A stretch of DNA of 64,000 nt. Source: Sphingosinicella sp. YJ22 (lineage in GTDB: Bacteria; Pseudomonadota; Alphaproteobacteria; Sphingomonadales; Sphingomonadaceae). The stretch covers positions 1 through 64,000 of the forward strand of contig NZ_JAANPA010000002.1 of the NCBI RefSeq assembly GCF_011320075.1, in the 5' to 3' direction. The translations under genes were made by a program, and so were the position numbers. Numbering within the stretch: position 1 is the stretch's first letter; each line of letters opens with the position of its first letter. The notes under the pieces were generated by a model. The model worked only from the letters and a program-made list of their open reading frames with translations. It did not search any database and was not told the DNA's origin. Shown one piece after another: positions 36,946 to 46,852 of this stretch.

Positions 36946-37767
36946 TCATTCCGCCGCCCGCTCGACTCGCTCGGTCGCCAGCTTGACCACCGCGAGCGAG
37001 GTTTCCTCGATCGAGCGGCGGGTGACGTCGATCACCGGCCAGCCCTGATCGGCGAAGATGCGCCGGGCGAAGGCGAGTTCGGCGCTCACCGCCTCCATGT
37101 CGACATAGTCGGTCTCAGGCGGCTGGTTGAGCGCGAGCAGCCGGTTGCGCCGGATCTGGATCAACCGGTCGGGATTGGTGGTGAGGCCGACAATGAGGGG
37201 GTGCTTCAGGTTGAACAATGCCGGCGGCGGCGGCGATTCCGGCACCAGCGGCACGTTGGCGACCTTGTAGCCGCGATTGGCGAGGTAGATGGCGGTCGGA
37301 GTCTTCGACGTGCGCGACACGCCGGTCAGAACGATGTCCGCCTCCTCCCAATTTTCCGGCTGAAGGCCGTCGTCATGGGCGATGGTGAACTGGATCGCGT
37401 CGACGCGCGCGAAATAAGCGGCGTCCATCGCGTGCTGCCGCCCCGGCCGGCCCTTGGTCGCCTCGCCGGTGACCGCCGACAGGGCGTCGATGACCGGATC
37501 GAGCACCGACACCGCGTAGAGGCTGCGGCGGCGGCAATTCTGCTCCAGCGCGCGGCGGATCGCCGGATTGACAAGGGTGTAGAGAACCAGGCCCGGCCGT
37601 TGCTGGATATCGTCGAGCACGCGTTCGAGATGACCTTCGGAGCGTACCATCGGCCAGAAGTGGCGGATCGCGTCGACTTCGTCGAACTGGGCAAGGCAGG
37701 CCTTGGCGACGATGTCGAGCGTTTCGCCGGTCGAATCCGACAGGAGATGGAGATGCAGCTGCTTCAC
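36946..37767 (-). CDS. ppsR: Pyruvate, phosphate dikinase regulatory protein (DUF299)
   Basis: A kinase/pyrophosphorylase that switches pyruvate phosphate dikinase or PEP synthase. The 273-residue product starts with LHLHLLSDSTGETLDIV and carries the nucleotide-binding LTGVSRTSKTPTAIYLAN near residue 150. It is the leftward gene at the edge of the proposed origin; its homologue beside the Caulobacter and Rickettsia origins supports that location. The target enzyme gene is not in this window. Confidence 0.92.
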   Translation of the reverse strand: MKQLHLHLLSDSTGETLDIVAKACLAQFDEVDAIRHFWPMVRSEGHLERVLDDIQQRPGLVLYTLVNPAIRRALEQNCRRRSLYAVSVLDPVIDALSAVTGEATKGRPGRQHAMDAAYFARVDAIQFTIAHDDGLQPENWEEADIVLTGVSRTSKTPTAIYLANRGYKVANVPLVPESPPPPALFNLKHPLIVGLTTNPDRLIQIRRNRLLALNQPPETDYVDMEAVSAELAFARRIFADQGWPVIDVTRRSIEETSLAVVKLATERVERAAE

Positions 37768-37810
37768 CTGGCCTCCGAGTCGGCTCGTTTCGGGAACGAA
37801 AGAAGGCCCT

Positions 37811-37819
37811 TGTGGAAAA
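37811..37819 (-). other. DnaA-box-like site (one mismatch)
   Basis: TGTGGAAAA on the plus strand, read TTTTCCACA on the minus strand, differs from the consensus TTATCCACA at one base. It lies in the candidate origin gap. Confidence 0.55.
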
Positions 37820-37922
37820 CCATGTTGAGATCGCTAGCGGAACCCTGGTTGCGCTTTCAAGGATAGCTTCCGCCCCCGGCCCGCGCGATTCCGTCCACAG
37901 CGCCGCCAACAGTGGACGAGTT

Positions 37923-37931
37923 TGCTCCACA
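37923..37931 (+). other. Weak DnaA-box-like site
   Basis: TGCTCCACA differs from the consensus at two bases. It faces the perfect box three bases to its right, making an inverted pair around ACA. Confidence 0.4.
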
Positions 37932-37934
37932 ACA

Positions 37935-37943
37935 TGTGGATAA
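37935..37943 (-). other. Perfect DnaA box
   Basis: TGTGGATAA on the plus strand is the exact complement of the consensus TTATCCACA. It lies in the middle of the gap between ppsR and hemE and is the best single mark of the origin. Confidence 0.75.
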
Positions 37944-38109
37944 TGGGGACGCCGTTCCCGACTCGTTGAGCCCGCGCGGATTCTTACCCCGTCAAGCTGT
38001 TGGCAAAAAACCCCGCAGCCAATAAACCCCGCCTTCGCGCCGCCTACTCTCTTCAACAACTCAAGATTCTAATAAGAATATATATAAGGAAGGGGGGCGC
38101 TCAGAGCCC

Positions 38110-39159
38110 GTGACCCGATCGACTAAGTCATTGATAAACGTCCTGAAAGGCCAGCGCGCCGAGGTGCCGCCGATGTGGCTGATGCGCCAGGCGGGCCGCT
38201 ATCTGCCGGAATATCGCGCGCTTCGGGCCGACAAGGGCGGCTTCCTCGAGCTGGTCTACGACACCGACGCGGCGGCCGAAGTGACGCTTCAGCCGATCCG
38301 CCGGTTCGGCTTCGACGGCGCGATCCTGTTCTCCGACATCCTGATCGTTCCCCATGCGCTGGGCCAGGATTTGCGCTTCGAGGCGGGCGAGGGCCCGGTC
38401 CTGTCGCCGCGCCTGGTCGATGTCTCGCTGGCCTCGCTGGAGCGCGCTCCGGAGCGGTTGCGGCCGATTTACGAGACTGTGGAAAAAGTCGCCGCGCAAC
38501 TGCCTGAAACCACCACTTTCCTTGGCTTTGCCGGCAGTCCCTGGACGGTCGCGACCTATATGGTCGCCGGCCGCGGCTCCAAGGACCAAGGCGAGGCGCG
38601 CCGCTTCGCCTATGCCGATCCGCAAGCCTTTGGCGCGGTGATCGACGCGCTCGTCGACATGACGGTCGATTATCTCTCGGGCCAGATCCGCGCCGGCGTC
38701 GAGGCCGTGCAATTGTTCGACAGTTGGTCGGGCAGCCTCGCCCCCGCCCAGTTCGAGCGCTGGGTGATCGGCCCCAATGCCCGCATCGTCGCCGCGCTTC
38801 GCGAGCGTCACCCGGGCGTGCCGGTGATCGGTTTCCCCAAGGGCGCCGGGGCCAAGCTTCCGGCCTATGCCCGCGAGACCGGCATCGACGCGGTCGGCGT
38901 CGACGAGACCCAGGACCCGCACTGGATCGCCGCCAACATGCCGGCCGACCTTCCGGTCCAGGGCAATCTCGATCCGCTTGCGCTGATCGCGGGCGGCGCG
39001 GCGCTTGAACAGGCGGTCGCTTCGATCCTATCTGCGTTCGAGGGCCGCCCGCACATCTTCAACCTTGGCCACGGCATCCTTCCCGACACGCCGATCGCCC
39101 ATGTCGAGCGGCTGATCGAGCTGGTCCGTGGGCGCGGCGGCGAGGGAGAGGCCGCTTGA
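38110..39159 (+). CDS. hemE: Uroporphyrinogen decarboxylase
   Basis: HemE removes four carboxyl groups from uroporphyrinogen III in haem synthesis. The 349-residue product has the N-terminal signature PPMWLMRQAGRYLPEYR, then FSDILIVPHALGQD, and the later GFPKGAGAKLPAYA and NLGHGILPDTPIAHV. It starts with GTG at 38110 after a purine-rich stretch. It overlaps the following hemJ start by 3 bases. Location beside the candidate origin is that of Caulobacter. Confidence 0.96.
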   Translation: MTRSTKSLINVLKGQRAEVPPMWLMRQAGRYLPEYRALRADKGGFLELVYDTDAAAEVTLQPIRRFGFDGAILFSDILIVPHALGQDLRFEAGEGPVLSPRLVDVSLASLERAPERLRPIYETVEKVAAQLPETTTFLGFAGSPWTVATYMVAGRGSKDQGEARRFAYADPQAFGAVIDALVDMTVDYLSGQIRAGVEAVQLFDSWSGSLAPAQFERWVIGPNARIVAALRERHPGVPVIGFPKGAGAKLPAYARETGIDAVGVDETQDPHWIAANMPADLPVQGNLDPLALIAGGAALEQAVASILSAFEGRPHIFNLGHGILPDTPIAHVERLIELVRGRGGEGEAA

Positions 39160-39608
39160 CCGACTGGGAGATCACCCTCGCCGTGCTGTACCCCTGGCTG
39201 AAGGCCGCCCACATCATCTTCGTGATCTTCTGGGTCGCCGGTTTATTCCTGCTGCCGCGTTACTATATCTATCATCAGGAAGCGGCGGCCGGTTCCGACG
39301 AGGAAGCGCGCTGGGTGGAGCGCGAGCGCAAGCTGCGCAACATCATACTCACCCCTTCGATGGTCCTGGTCTGGGCGCTCGGTATCGCGCTCGCCGTCGT
39401 CCTCAACGTCTGGGACCAGGGTTGGCTTCACGCCAAGCTGGTCTTCGTGCTCGGCCTCTCCGCCTATCACGGCTACATGGTCGGTTACGGCCGCAAGCTC
39501 GCCAAGGGCGAGCGCCCGGTCAGCGGCCGTGCGCTGAGGCTGATGAACGAGGTGCCGGGGATCGTCACCGCGGTCATCGTCATCCTGGTGGTGGTCAAGC
39601 CGTTCTAG
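39156..39608 (+). CDS. hemJ: Protoporphyrinogen IX oxidase HemJ
   Basis: HemJ oxidises protoporphyrinogen IX in organisms lacking HemY and HemG. The 150-residue integral membrane protein has about four helices, a conserved His in KAAHIIFVIFWVAGLF and HAKLVFVLGLSAYHGYM. The likely start is TTG at 39156, whose last two bases start the TGA stop of hemE (coupled). A GGGAGAG box precedes it. hemE and hemJ are thus a two-gene haem operon. Confidence 0.92.
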   Translation: MTDWEITLAVLYPWLKAAHIIFVIFWVAGLFLLPRYYIYHQEAAAGSDEEARWVERERKLRNIILTPSMVLVWALGIALAVVLNVWDQGWLHAKLVFVLGLSAYHGYMVGYGRKLAKGERPVSGRALRLMNEVPGIVTAVIVILVVVKPF

Positions 39609-39679
39609 CTGCGCGGCCGACTCCGAGTCCGAAGGCGTTGACTCGGATCGGGCCGGAGCATAGGGCGGCGTTGGTCGTT

Positions 39680-39710
39680 AAACCCGCCGTCCGCGCGGGG
39701 TTTCCTTCGC
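39680..39710 (+). terminator. Possible intrinsic terminator after hemEJ
   Basis: AAACCCGC (39680-39687) pairs with GCGGGGTTT (39695-39703) with one bulge, followed by a pyrimidine-rich CCTTCGCCTTTTCC. It lies in the gap before rho. Confidence 0.5.
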
Positions 39711-39773
39711 CTTTTCCAATTCCAAATCTGTCCGCCGGCCATCGCTCGGACTCGGTTTCACAAGAGTTTATCT

Positions 39774-41030
<1,257 letters not shown>

Positions 41031-43526: not shown

Positions 43527-43542
43527 TGTTCCACGTGGAACA
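43527..43542. other. parS: parS site 1 (perfect palindrome)
   Basis: TGTTCCACGTGGAACA is a perfect 16-bp palindrome starting right after the mnmE stop. It fits the widespread parS consensus bound by ParB. parA and parB lie 2.5-4 kb to the right. Confidence 0.92.
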
Positions 43543-45438: not shown

Positions 45439-46073
45439 CCGAAGAAGAGGCGACAGAGTGGATCCGGGCGGAGTTTGATGTTCCACGTGAAACAATGACG
45501 CGCCTGGACGACTTTGCCGCTTTGCTCGTTTCGGAGAACGAACGGCAGAACCTCGTTTCACGTGGAACATTGCCGCACCTCTGGGCCCGCCACTTCCTCG
45601 ATTCGGCCCAACTCCTGCGCTTCGCTCCCTCCCCCGATTCGACGTGGCTCGATTTGGGCACCGGGGCCGGATTCCCCGGCATGGTCGTCGCCGCCCTTCA
45701 CCGTGGCCCCGTGACGATGGTCGAATCGCGTAGGCTCCGTGTGGAGTTCCTTCACCGCGCCGCCGAGGTGCTGGGCGTGTCCGACCGGACGACCCTGCTG
45801 CTCGACCGGGTCGAACGGGTGCCAACGCACAAATTCGACGTGATCAGCGCCCGCGCCTTCGCGCCGATGGGCGAGCTTCTCGAACTTGCGCACCGCTTCT
45901 CCACAGAAAAGACGCGCTGGATTCTCCCCAAGGGACGCAGCGCGCAGTCGGAACTGGAAGCCGCCGAATCTTCGTGGCAGGGTTCGTTCCGTCTGGAGCC
46001 GAGCCTCACTGACCCGGATTCCGGCATCATCGTTGCGGACGGCGTGACGCCGCAGGGCAGGAAAAGAGCATGA
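45435..46073 (+). CDS. rsmG: 16S rRNA (guanine527-N7)-methyltransferase RsmG
   Basis: RsmG (GidB) methylates G527 of 16S rRNA. The 212-residue product has an SAM-binding [14 protein letters not shown] and [15 protein letters not shown]. It overlaps mnmG and parA by 4 bases each. Two parS sites lie inside its coding sequence near the N-terminus. Confidence 0.95.
45479..45494. other. parS: parS site 2, inside rsmG
   Basis: TGTTCCACGTGAAACA keeps the parS core with one departure from perfect palindromy. It lies in codons near the start of rsmG, so coding and ParB binding share the same DNA. Confidence 0.85.
45554..45569. other. parS: parS site 3, inside rsmG
   Basis: CGTTTCACGTGGAACA matches the parS consensus except its first base. 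It lies 60 bases after site 2, also within rsmG. Confidence 0.82.
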
Positions 46074-46852
46074 TTCGGATCGCGATTGCGAATCAGAAGG
46101 GCGGCGTCGGCAAGACCACCACGGCGATCAACCTCGGCACGGCGCTTGCGGCGACCGGCGACCGGGTGCTGGTTGTCGACCTCGACCCTCAGGGCAACGC
46201 CTCGACAGGCCTCGGCATCACACAGGGACAGCGCGAGCGGTCGAGTTATGACCTTCTCACCGGGCAAGCGCGCCTCGGCGAGGCGGCGATCCCGACGCGG
46301 GTGCCGCGTCTCGACATCGTCCCCGCAACAGTCGACCTGTCCGGCGCCGAGATCGAGATGGTCGAGTTCGAGAACCGGACCCATCGCCTCGACCTGGCGC
46401 TCGAAGGCGAGGAAGGCCGCTGGGACGTCTGCCTGATCGACTGCCCCCCTTCCCTCGGCCTGCTGACGATCAACGCGCTGGTCGCCGCCAATTCGATCCT
46501 GGTGCCGCTCCAGGCCGAATTCTTCGCTCTGGAGGGCCTCAGCCAGCTGCTCCAGACGGTCGAGCGGGTCCGTGCTCGCTTCAATCCCGAGCTGTCGATC
46601 CTCGGAGTCGCGTTGACCATGTACGACCGGCGCAACAACCTGTCGTCGCAGGTCGCCGAAGACGTCCGCGCCTGCCTCGGCAAGGTCGTGTTCGACACTG
46701 TCGTGCCGCGCAACGTCCGGCTGAGCGAGGCGCCGAGCCACGGCATTCCCGCTCTGATCTACGACCAGCGCTGCTCGGGCTCGGCGGCCTATATGGACCT
46801 GGCCCGCGAGCTTCTTGCGCGGATGCCTCGGCGGACCAGGGAAGCCGCATGA
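46070..46852 (+). CDS. parA: Chromosome partitioning ATPase ParA
   Basis: ParA drives movement of the ParB-parS complex after replication. The 260-residue product has the deviant Walker A KGGVGKTTTAINLG, then LVVDLDPQGNASTGLG and CLIDCPPSLGLLTINAL. It overlaps rsmG and parB by 4 bases each, so rsmG-parA-parB are one operon. Confidence 0.97.
   Translation: MIRIAIANQKGGVGKTTTAINLGTALAATGDRVLVVDLDPQGNASTGLGITQGQRERSSYDLLTGQARLGEAAIPTRVPRLDIVPATVDLSGAEIEMVEFENRTHRLDLALEGEEGRWDVCLIDCPPSLGLLTINALVAANSILVPLQAEFFALEGLSQLLQTVERVRARFNPELSILGVALTMYDRRNNLSSQVAEDVRACLGKVVFDTVVPRNVRLSEAPSHGIPALIYDQRCSGSAAYMDLARELLARMPRRTREAA

Follow-up and report, generated by a model that had tools for sequence, protein, structure and literature searches.

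Comparative evidence for a chromosomal replication origin of the hemE type in Sphingosinicella sp. YJ22

Introduction

Where does replication of the chromosome begin in Sphingosinicella sp. YJ22, a sphingomonad whose genome is assembled in 82 contigs? The stretch of DNA analyzed here (the window, 64,000 nucleotides in length) holds an intergenic gap between ppsR and hemE that the first-pass annotation had put forward as the chromosomal origin (oriC), noting that the origin of Caulobacter adjoins hemE. The literature agrees: the Caulobacter origin was located experimentally between hemE and ppsR, and a location at hemE is also known for Rickettsia (PMC1914354). A hemE-side oriC has in addition already been predicted for Sphingomonadaceae (PMC4741004). 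Among the features by which an origin of the hemE type is recognized, those that we found at this locus are a gap between divergent ppsR and hemE genes, conserved DnaA boxes in numbers that exceed chance across relatives, an AT-rich tract, and parS sites close by. From these features and their distribution among relatives we infer with high confidence that the gap at positions 37768-38109 is the replication origin of the chromosome and that it belongs to the alphaproteobacterial hemE type. We also describe a cluster of GANTC sites within it, the significance of which is considerably less certain.

Anatomy of the ppsR-hemE gap

The gap (37768-38109, 342 bp) is bordered on the left by ppsR (36946-37767, minus strand; NF003742, E 1.9e-99; PF03618), which encodes the regulator of pyruvate,phosphate dikinase/PEP synthase, and on the right by hemE (38110-39159, plus strand; TIGR01464, E 1.4e-118), which encodes uroporphyrinogen decarboxylase. 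Genes point away from it on both sides, with ppsR, maf, coaE, dnaQ, hpf and ptsN directed leftward and hemE, hemJ, rho, mnmE, mnmG, rsmG, parA and parB directed rightward (the last two being family-level matches); a dienelactone hydrolase gene is the exception to this arrangement. These gene families and directions, including the exception, are those given by the first-pass annotation, and the sequence elements that it had claimed within the gap were all recovered. A perfect DnaA box, TGTGGATAA (TTATCCACA on the minus strand), occupies positions 37935-37943 and constitutes the right half of a facing pair, the left half of which is a weak plus-strand box with two mismatches, TGCTCCACA, at 37923-37931. 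Exactly 3 bases separate the two. A third box, TGTGGAAAA at 37811-37819 (read as the minus-strand box TTTTCCACA), carries one mismatch and represents the best conserved box position. Just before hemE lies a tract with 88% A+T (38063-38087), which is the AT-richest 25-mer of the entire window and the probable unwinding element.

When the gaps of the 26 genus genomes (own genome included) were aligned, conservation was highest in three blocks, located at about 37809-37842, 37991-38008 and 38021-38030. The first contains ATCGCTAGCGGAA (37830-37842, plus strand), in which the commonest base reaches at least 90% in 9 of 13 columns; this segment is not a DnaA box, well conserved though it is in the 26 genomes. 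The second contains GTCAAGCTGTTGGCAA (37991-38006, plus strand), in which the commonest base reaches at least 80% in 15 of 16 columns, and which includes a very weak box-like 9-mer with three mismatches, TGTTGGCAA, at 37998-38006. Adjoining the AT-rich tract, a spacer at 38037-38062 (plus strand) holds the trinucleotide register CTT CAA CAA CTC and is a candidate for contact between DnaA and single-stranded DNA. A scan of positions 37700-38200 for terminators and Rfam families found none.

Conservation of the gap among relatives

Comparison of hemE loci from public genomes, mostly sphingomonad records, provides the framework for evaluating this anatomy. The order ppsR-gap-hemE was found in 75 of the best 80 of 590 hemE loci and in all 26 genomes of the genus. 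The alignment of gaps and the counts derived from it omit one locus in which the contig ends (L012) and four loci without ppsR (L021, L051, L067 and L078), and add the own locus (L001) to the 75, for a total of 76 gaps and 25,133 bp. Flanking DNA served for comparison and amounted to 868,856 bp in the counts of boxes and 866 kb in the counts of facing pairs. The layout seen in the window is kept in these 76 gaps and in the genus. Furthermore, in a class-wide draw that matched PpsR in 185 of 289 genomes, the 30 best-scoring loci (own locus included) all had the ppsR-gap-hemE order, and in all 30 the gap exceeded the locus in A+T content.

DnaA boxes are concentrated in these gaps. Perfect boxes number 54 in the 76 gaps (2.15 per kb) versus 11 in the flanks (0.013 per kb), an enrichment of about 170-fold, and boxes with at most one mismatch number 177 (7.0 per kb) versus 102 (0.12 per kb). 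At the aligned position of the 37811 box, a box with at most one mismatch is present in 53 of the 76 gaps and one with at most two mismatches in 68; at the position of the 37935 box, at most one mismatch is found in 35 gaps and a perfect match in 14. The facing pair with its 3-bp spacing (at most four mismatches in total) occurs in 42 of the 76 gaps versus 2 matches in the flanks, and any alternative spacing between 0 and 7 is represented in only 0 to 5 gaps. This pair is typical of the wider family and rare in the window's own genus, where just 2 of the 26 genomes, the own included, possess it. Conservation of the gap across sphingomonad genomes, a check that the first-pass annotation had proposed, is evident both in the order of genes and in the enrichment of boxes.

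The number of perfect boxes in any one gap is small. Among the 76 gaps, 39 have none, 23 have one, 12 have two, one has three and one has four, and the genus is similarly distributed (none in 17 of 26 genomes, one in eight, two in one). Consequently, the single perfect box of the window, which had been regarded as unusually few, is nothing out of the ordinary, and the number of canonical boxes is a poor guide to the origin in sphingomonads. A search for boxes with one mismatch, also suggested earlier, gave a divided answer: the window contains 8 boxes with at most one mismatch versus 1.7 expected (only 2 of them in the gap), and the own genome as a whole contains 134 versus 230 for the reversed control pattern (7 versus 6 in the case of perfect boxes). 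Because boxes with at most one mismatch are rarer genome-wide than the control, box density in the own genome was rejected as proof of an origin, and the number of boxes alone neither proves an origin nor singles out the gap. Among the 100 of these 134 places that were listed, the dnaA locus (L002) contains a pair of one-mismatch boxes 165 bp apart, and further pairs of this kind may exist elsewhere in the own genome.

Some records in the comparison call for comment. Two of them, L030 (Microvirga sp. SRT01) and L075 (Bacillus sp. 2B10), carry sphingomonad-like hemE/origin loci, and the organism names attached to them are probably wrong. In L021 (5500-7000), hemE stands without ppsR, and upstream of it we found apparent coding sequence, no boxes and no origin-like gap; none of the eight window neighbor genes was matched in this locus. 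The hemE found there may be a second copy, or the contig may be chimeric.

Partition sites, GC skew and the dnaA locus

A gap from which genes diverge could serve only as a promoter region for ppsR and hemE, with DnaA acting there as a regulator of transcription, as the protein is known to do (PMC4468827), and with replication starting elsewhere, for example beside dnaA, which sits on a different contig (C2). We consider this explanation highly improbable. Against it, a scan of 37700-38200 yielded no sigma-70-like promoter (note that alphaproteobacterial promoters may differ), and the element is kept at three sphingomonad loci from which ppsR is absent. In these loci (L051, L067 and L078), a maf homologue (39-41% identity) adjoins hemE across an origin-like gap in which TGTTGGCAAA, GANTC sites and an AT-rich tract are retained. 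The gaps of L067 and L078 retain DnaA boxes, and that of L051 has none with at most one mismatch. The arrangement, found about 6 kb into each locus, can be viewed as a left flank that nature has shortened.

The location of the chromosome partition sites also argues against an origin at dnaA. Three parS sites are present in the window, at 43527-43542, 45479-45494 and 45554-45569, with two, one and two mismatches to TGTTTCACGTGAAACA, respectively. Exact matches to the parS pattern GTTNCACGTGNAAC number three in the own genome; all of them fall at 43.5-45.6 kb of the window, beside parAB and 5.4-7.5 kb from the gap, and none falls on the contig of dnaA. The same linkage was recovered in three relatives from the family (G012, G145 and G244), which have two, four and three matches to the pattern, all about 5-9 kb from ppsR.

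Within the window, GC skew exhibits no switch of sign at the gap (the own genome is in 82 contigs). We sampled skew in two relatives, as cumulative and interpolated values with a coarse resolution of 80-170 kb. In G012 (one contig of 3,376,213 bp; 20 stretches), the skew minimum, at 2.09 Mb, is some 120 kb from the gap, which lies at about 2.21 Mb; the dnaA domain lies at 488-970 bp (0.0005 Mb), about 1.2 Mb from the minimum if the contig is circular. The skew maximum is at 0.13 Mb, away from the point opposite the gap. In G145 (contig of 2,685,587 bp; 22 stretches), the minimum falls at 1.115 Mb and the gap at 1.148 Mb, with a mean skew of -0.015 in the 10 stretches to the left of the gap and +0.021 in the 12 stretches to its right. 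In both relatives, skew is already positive in the stretch that borders the gap on its left. A skew minimum next to dnaA, which the first-pass annotation had named as the outcome that would speak against its proposal, was looked for in G012, where the sampled minimum is near the gap and not next to dnaA.

Of the two one-mismatch boxes in the dnaA locus (L002, 3.5 kb), one is within the matched domain and the other follows the domain at a distance of 38 bp, with none in the 1.5 kb on its upstream side. An origin beside dnaA was rejected on the grounds of parS location, the skew of G012 and these box positions. Overall, the gap between ppsR and hemE reads as oriC on account of its gene order, the enrichment and spacing of its boxes, its AT-rich tract, the nearby parS sites, the coarsely sampled skew minima of two relatives, and its persistence without ppsR. 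It is this comparative evidence, and not the count of boxes in the own genome, that leads to the identification of the origin and supports the original proposal.

Comparison with known origins and a proposed path of initiation

Cori of Caulobacter crescentus and other origins of the hemE type share with the window the position between hemE and ppsR (COG1806), an AT-rich stretch, and parS within 8 kb (PMC1914354, PMC4468827), and Cori likewise combines a few moderate with several very weak DnaA boxes (PMC4468827). Unlike Cori, which is compared here by its published description, the window's gap has dense GANTC and lacks both the CtrA site TTAA-N7-TTAA and the IHF consensus. In the 76 gaps, the CtrA site occurs once and the IHF consensus, in the slightly relaxed form WATCAN5WTR, 8 times versus 7.6 in shuffles. 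CtrA and IHF sites of the Caulobacter type were rejected as features of the gap, neither being above chance there. Since an influence of CtrA on replication has been shown in Sphingomonas melonis, according to a review (PMC8116508), control of the sphingomonad origin by CtrA through other sites is possible.

The oriC predicted for Sphingopyxis granuli TFA is also beside hemE, in a neighborhood whose gene order is conserved, and includes DnaA boxes together with a putative unwinding element; as far as these predicted Sphingomonadaceae origins are described in the accessible portion of the source, they do not differ in kind from the window, and GANTC is not mentioned there (PMC4741004). The oriC of E. 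coli resembles the window's gap in having boxes beside an AT-rich unwinding element and a cluster of methylation sites within the origin (PMC10073500). The 9-mer TCTTATTAG occurs both in E. coli oriC and on the bottom strand of the window's tract (38069-38077), perhaps by chance. In contrast to the gap, the E. coli origin lies between mnmG and mioC, its boxes are otherwise spaced, and its methylation system is GATC with Dam instead of GANTC with CcrM.

The anatomy of the gap suggests how initiation could proceed. DnaA would bind the few moderate boxes, namely the 37811 box and the facing pair 37923/37935, and would then spread cooperatively onto very weak sites rightward toward hemE (37998 and beyond), with the assembly opening the AT-rich tract at 38063-38087. 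Helicase would be loaded at the opened tract and forks would depart both ways, codirectional with most of the flanking genes. ParB, bound to parS at 5.4-7.5 kb to the right of the gap, would then separate the new origins.

Alternatively, the origin could unwind in the published BUS manner, by means of a DnaA box and DnaA-trios located just right of the box near the AT-rich tract. Many relatives indeed have a trinucleotide register between the box region and the tract: at least three C-[AT]-[ACT] in register are present in 51 of the 76 gaps versus 6.6 expected from shuffles (maximum 16), a comparison that the kinship of the sequences makes optimistic. Same-base matches are raised at lag 3 (0.394 versus 0.301) and also at lag 7 (0.380). 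In some relatives, a TCCACAGG box directly adjoins the register. The published DnaA-trio rule calls for three or more trios with A as the middle base and a box no more than 16 bp away (PMC8287927), and the window does not clearly follow it. No box with at most two mismatches stands near the AT-rich tract of the window; the closest one ends at 37943, which leaves about 93 bp to the triplet segment. The tandem triplet seen most often, CAA (25 of the 76 gaps), gives a central T and not the required A on the relevant strand. We regard the BUS manner of unwinding as unlikely and favor cooperative spreading of DnaA from the moderate boxes; the register, which separates the weak sites from the tract, may represent a variant DnaA-trio element.

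GANTC sites in the origin

Five CcrM sites (GANTC) are distributed along the gap: GAGTC at 37777-37781, GATTC at 37887-37891 (9 of 26 genomes in the genus), GACTC at 37960-37964, GATTC at 37979-37983 (with GANTC one alignment column leftward in 40 of the 76 gaps), and GATTC at 38065-38069, within the AT-rich tract. This number compares with 1.5 expected and was reached by none of 50 shuffles. The 76 gaps together contain 345 GANTC (13.7 per kb) versus 105 +/- 11 in dinucleotide shuffles, which is an excess of about 3.3-fold, the shuffle figures being optimistic given that the aligned rows are related and not independent. The density in the flanks is 1.9 per kb. The class-wide enrichment is weak, with 76 versus 54 +/- 6 in 30 gaps, a few of which are sphingomonad. 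When the window was traversed in steps of 50 bases, a density of 5 GANTC per 342 bp appeared at just three spots, 37651-38092, 39501-39942 and 45801-46242, which correspond to the origin gap, the hemJ-rho stretch, and the end of rsmG with the start of parA, all in the origin-par region.

The own genome encodes CcrM (an ORF of 376 aa that matches NF050803 with E 3e-187 and a score of 621.7 bits, which falls short of the curated NCBIfam cut-off of 830) and GcrA (PF07750). Methylase sites clustered in the origin and a methylase in the same genome are thus both present, and the GANTC cluster likely makes the origin a CcrM target. The chances are roughly even, in our estimation, that the enrichment arose as a by-product, either of sequence conservation or of GANTC linked to promoters, and not through selection for methylation of the origin. 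GANTC is known to be enriched in the intergenic DNA of Alphaproteobacteria (PMC8116508), but the 225 other intergenic stretches of our loci, delimited with a crude gene caller, have only 2.5 GANTC per kb versus the 13.7 of the origin gaps. Similarly, AGNCT is raised 2.3-fold (145 sites in the gaps, of which 101 touch no GANTC) and TANTA 2.0-fold, but GANTC, at 3.25-fold, ranks first among the 16 gapped palindromes. A further observation against a by-product concerns the site at 37960-37964, which stands 16 bases beyond the central DnaA box. It is present in 26 of 26 genus genomes, with the four specified bases G, A, T and C fixed and the middle base free to vary (GACTC in 9, GAATC in 17), and in 47 of the 76 gaps of the wider set (free base C in 27, A in 20).

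The presence of CcrM was also surveyed in 51 genomes, consisting of 20 of the 25 genus relatives and 31 others. Five of the 51 had no match to the RAMA domain, and these genomes (G298, G184, G163, G110 and G228) keep 5, 4, 5, 2 and 2 GANTC in their gaps, respectively. Consequently, no correlation between GANTC and CcrM can be claimed, and G298, with 5 sites in its gap, speaks for a by-product.

Methylation of these sites may possibly have an effect on initiation. We tentatively propose, at a low level of confidence, that sphingomonad origins are gated by CcrM methylation, in such a way that hemi-methylation after firing, directly or via a reader such as GcrA, would block or permit re-initiation. 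An earlier model held that methylation of Cori is needed (PMC2217572). GANTC motifs have been noted in the Caulobacter origin, and Caulobacter without CcrM retains normal control of initiation (PMC3973325), which also speaks for the by-product reading; this negative result is the single case of a ccrM deletion used as a test of the DnaA-origin system that we found in the accessible literature. In the papers searched, largely those outside subscription, we found no report of GANTC enrichment in sphingomonad origins.

Conclusions

The origin described here is itself of an already known kind, and the conserved GANTC site in sphingomonads may be the sole new part. Its placement between ppsR and hemE fixes the replichore layout of the own genome, and does so from comparative evidence instead of the counting of boxes. 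The conserved GANTC site by the central box offers a precise and inexpensive target for the question of whether DNA methylation times replication in alphaproteobacteria whose origins have no CtrA sites. If gating by CcrM were true, it would be the counterpart of Dam/SeqA control in origins without a consensus CtrA site.
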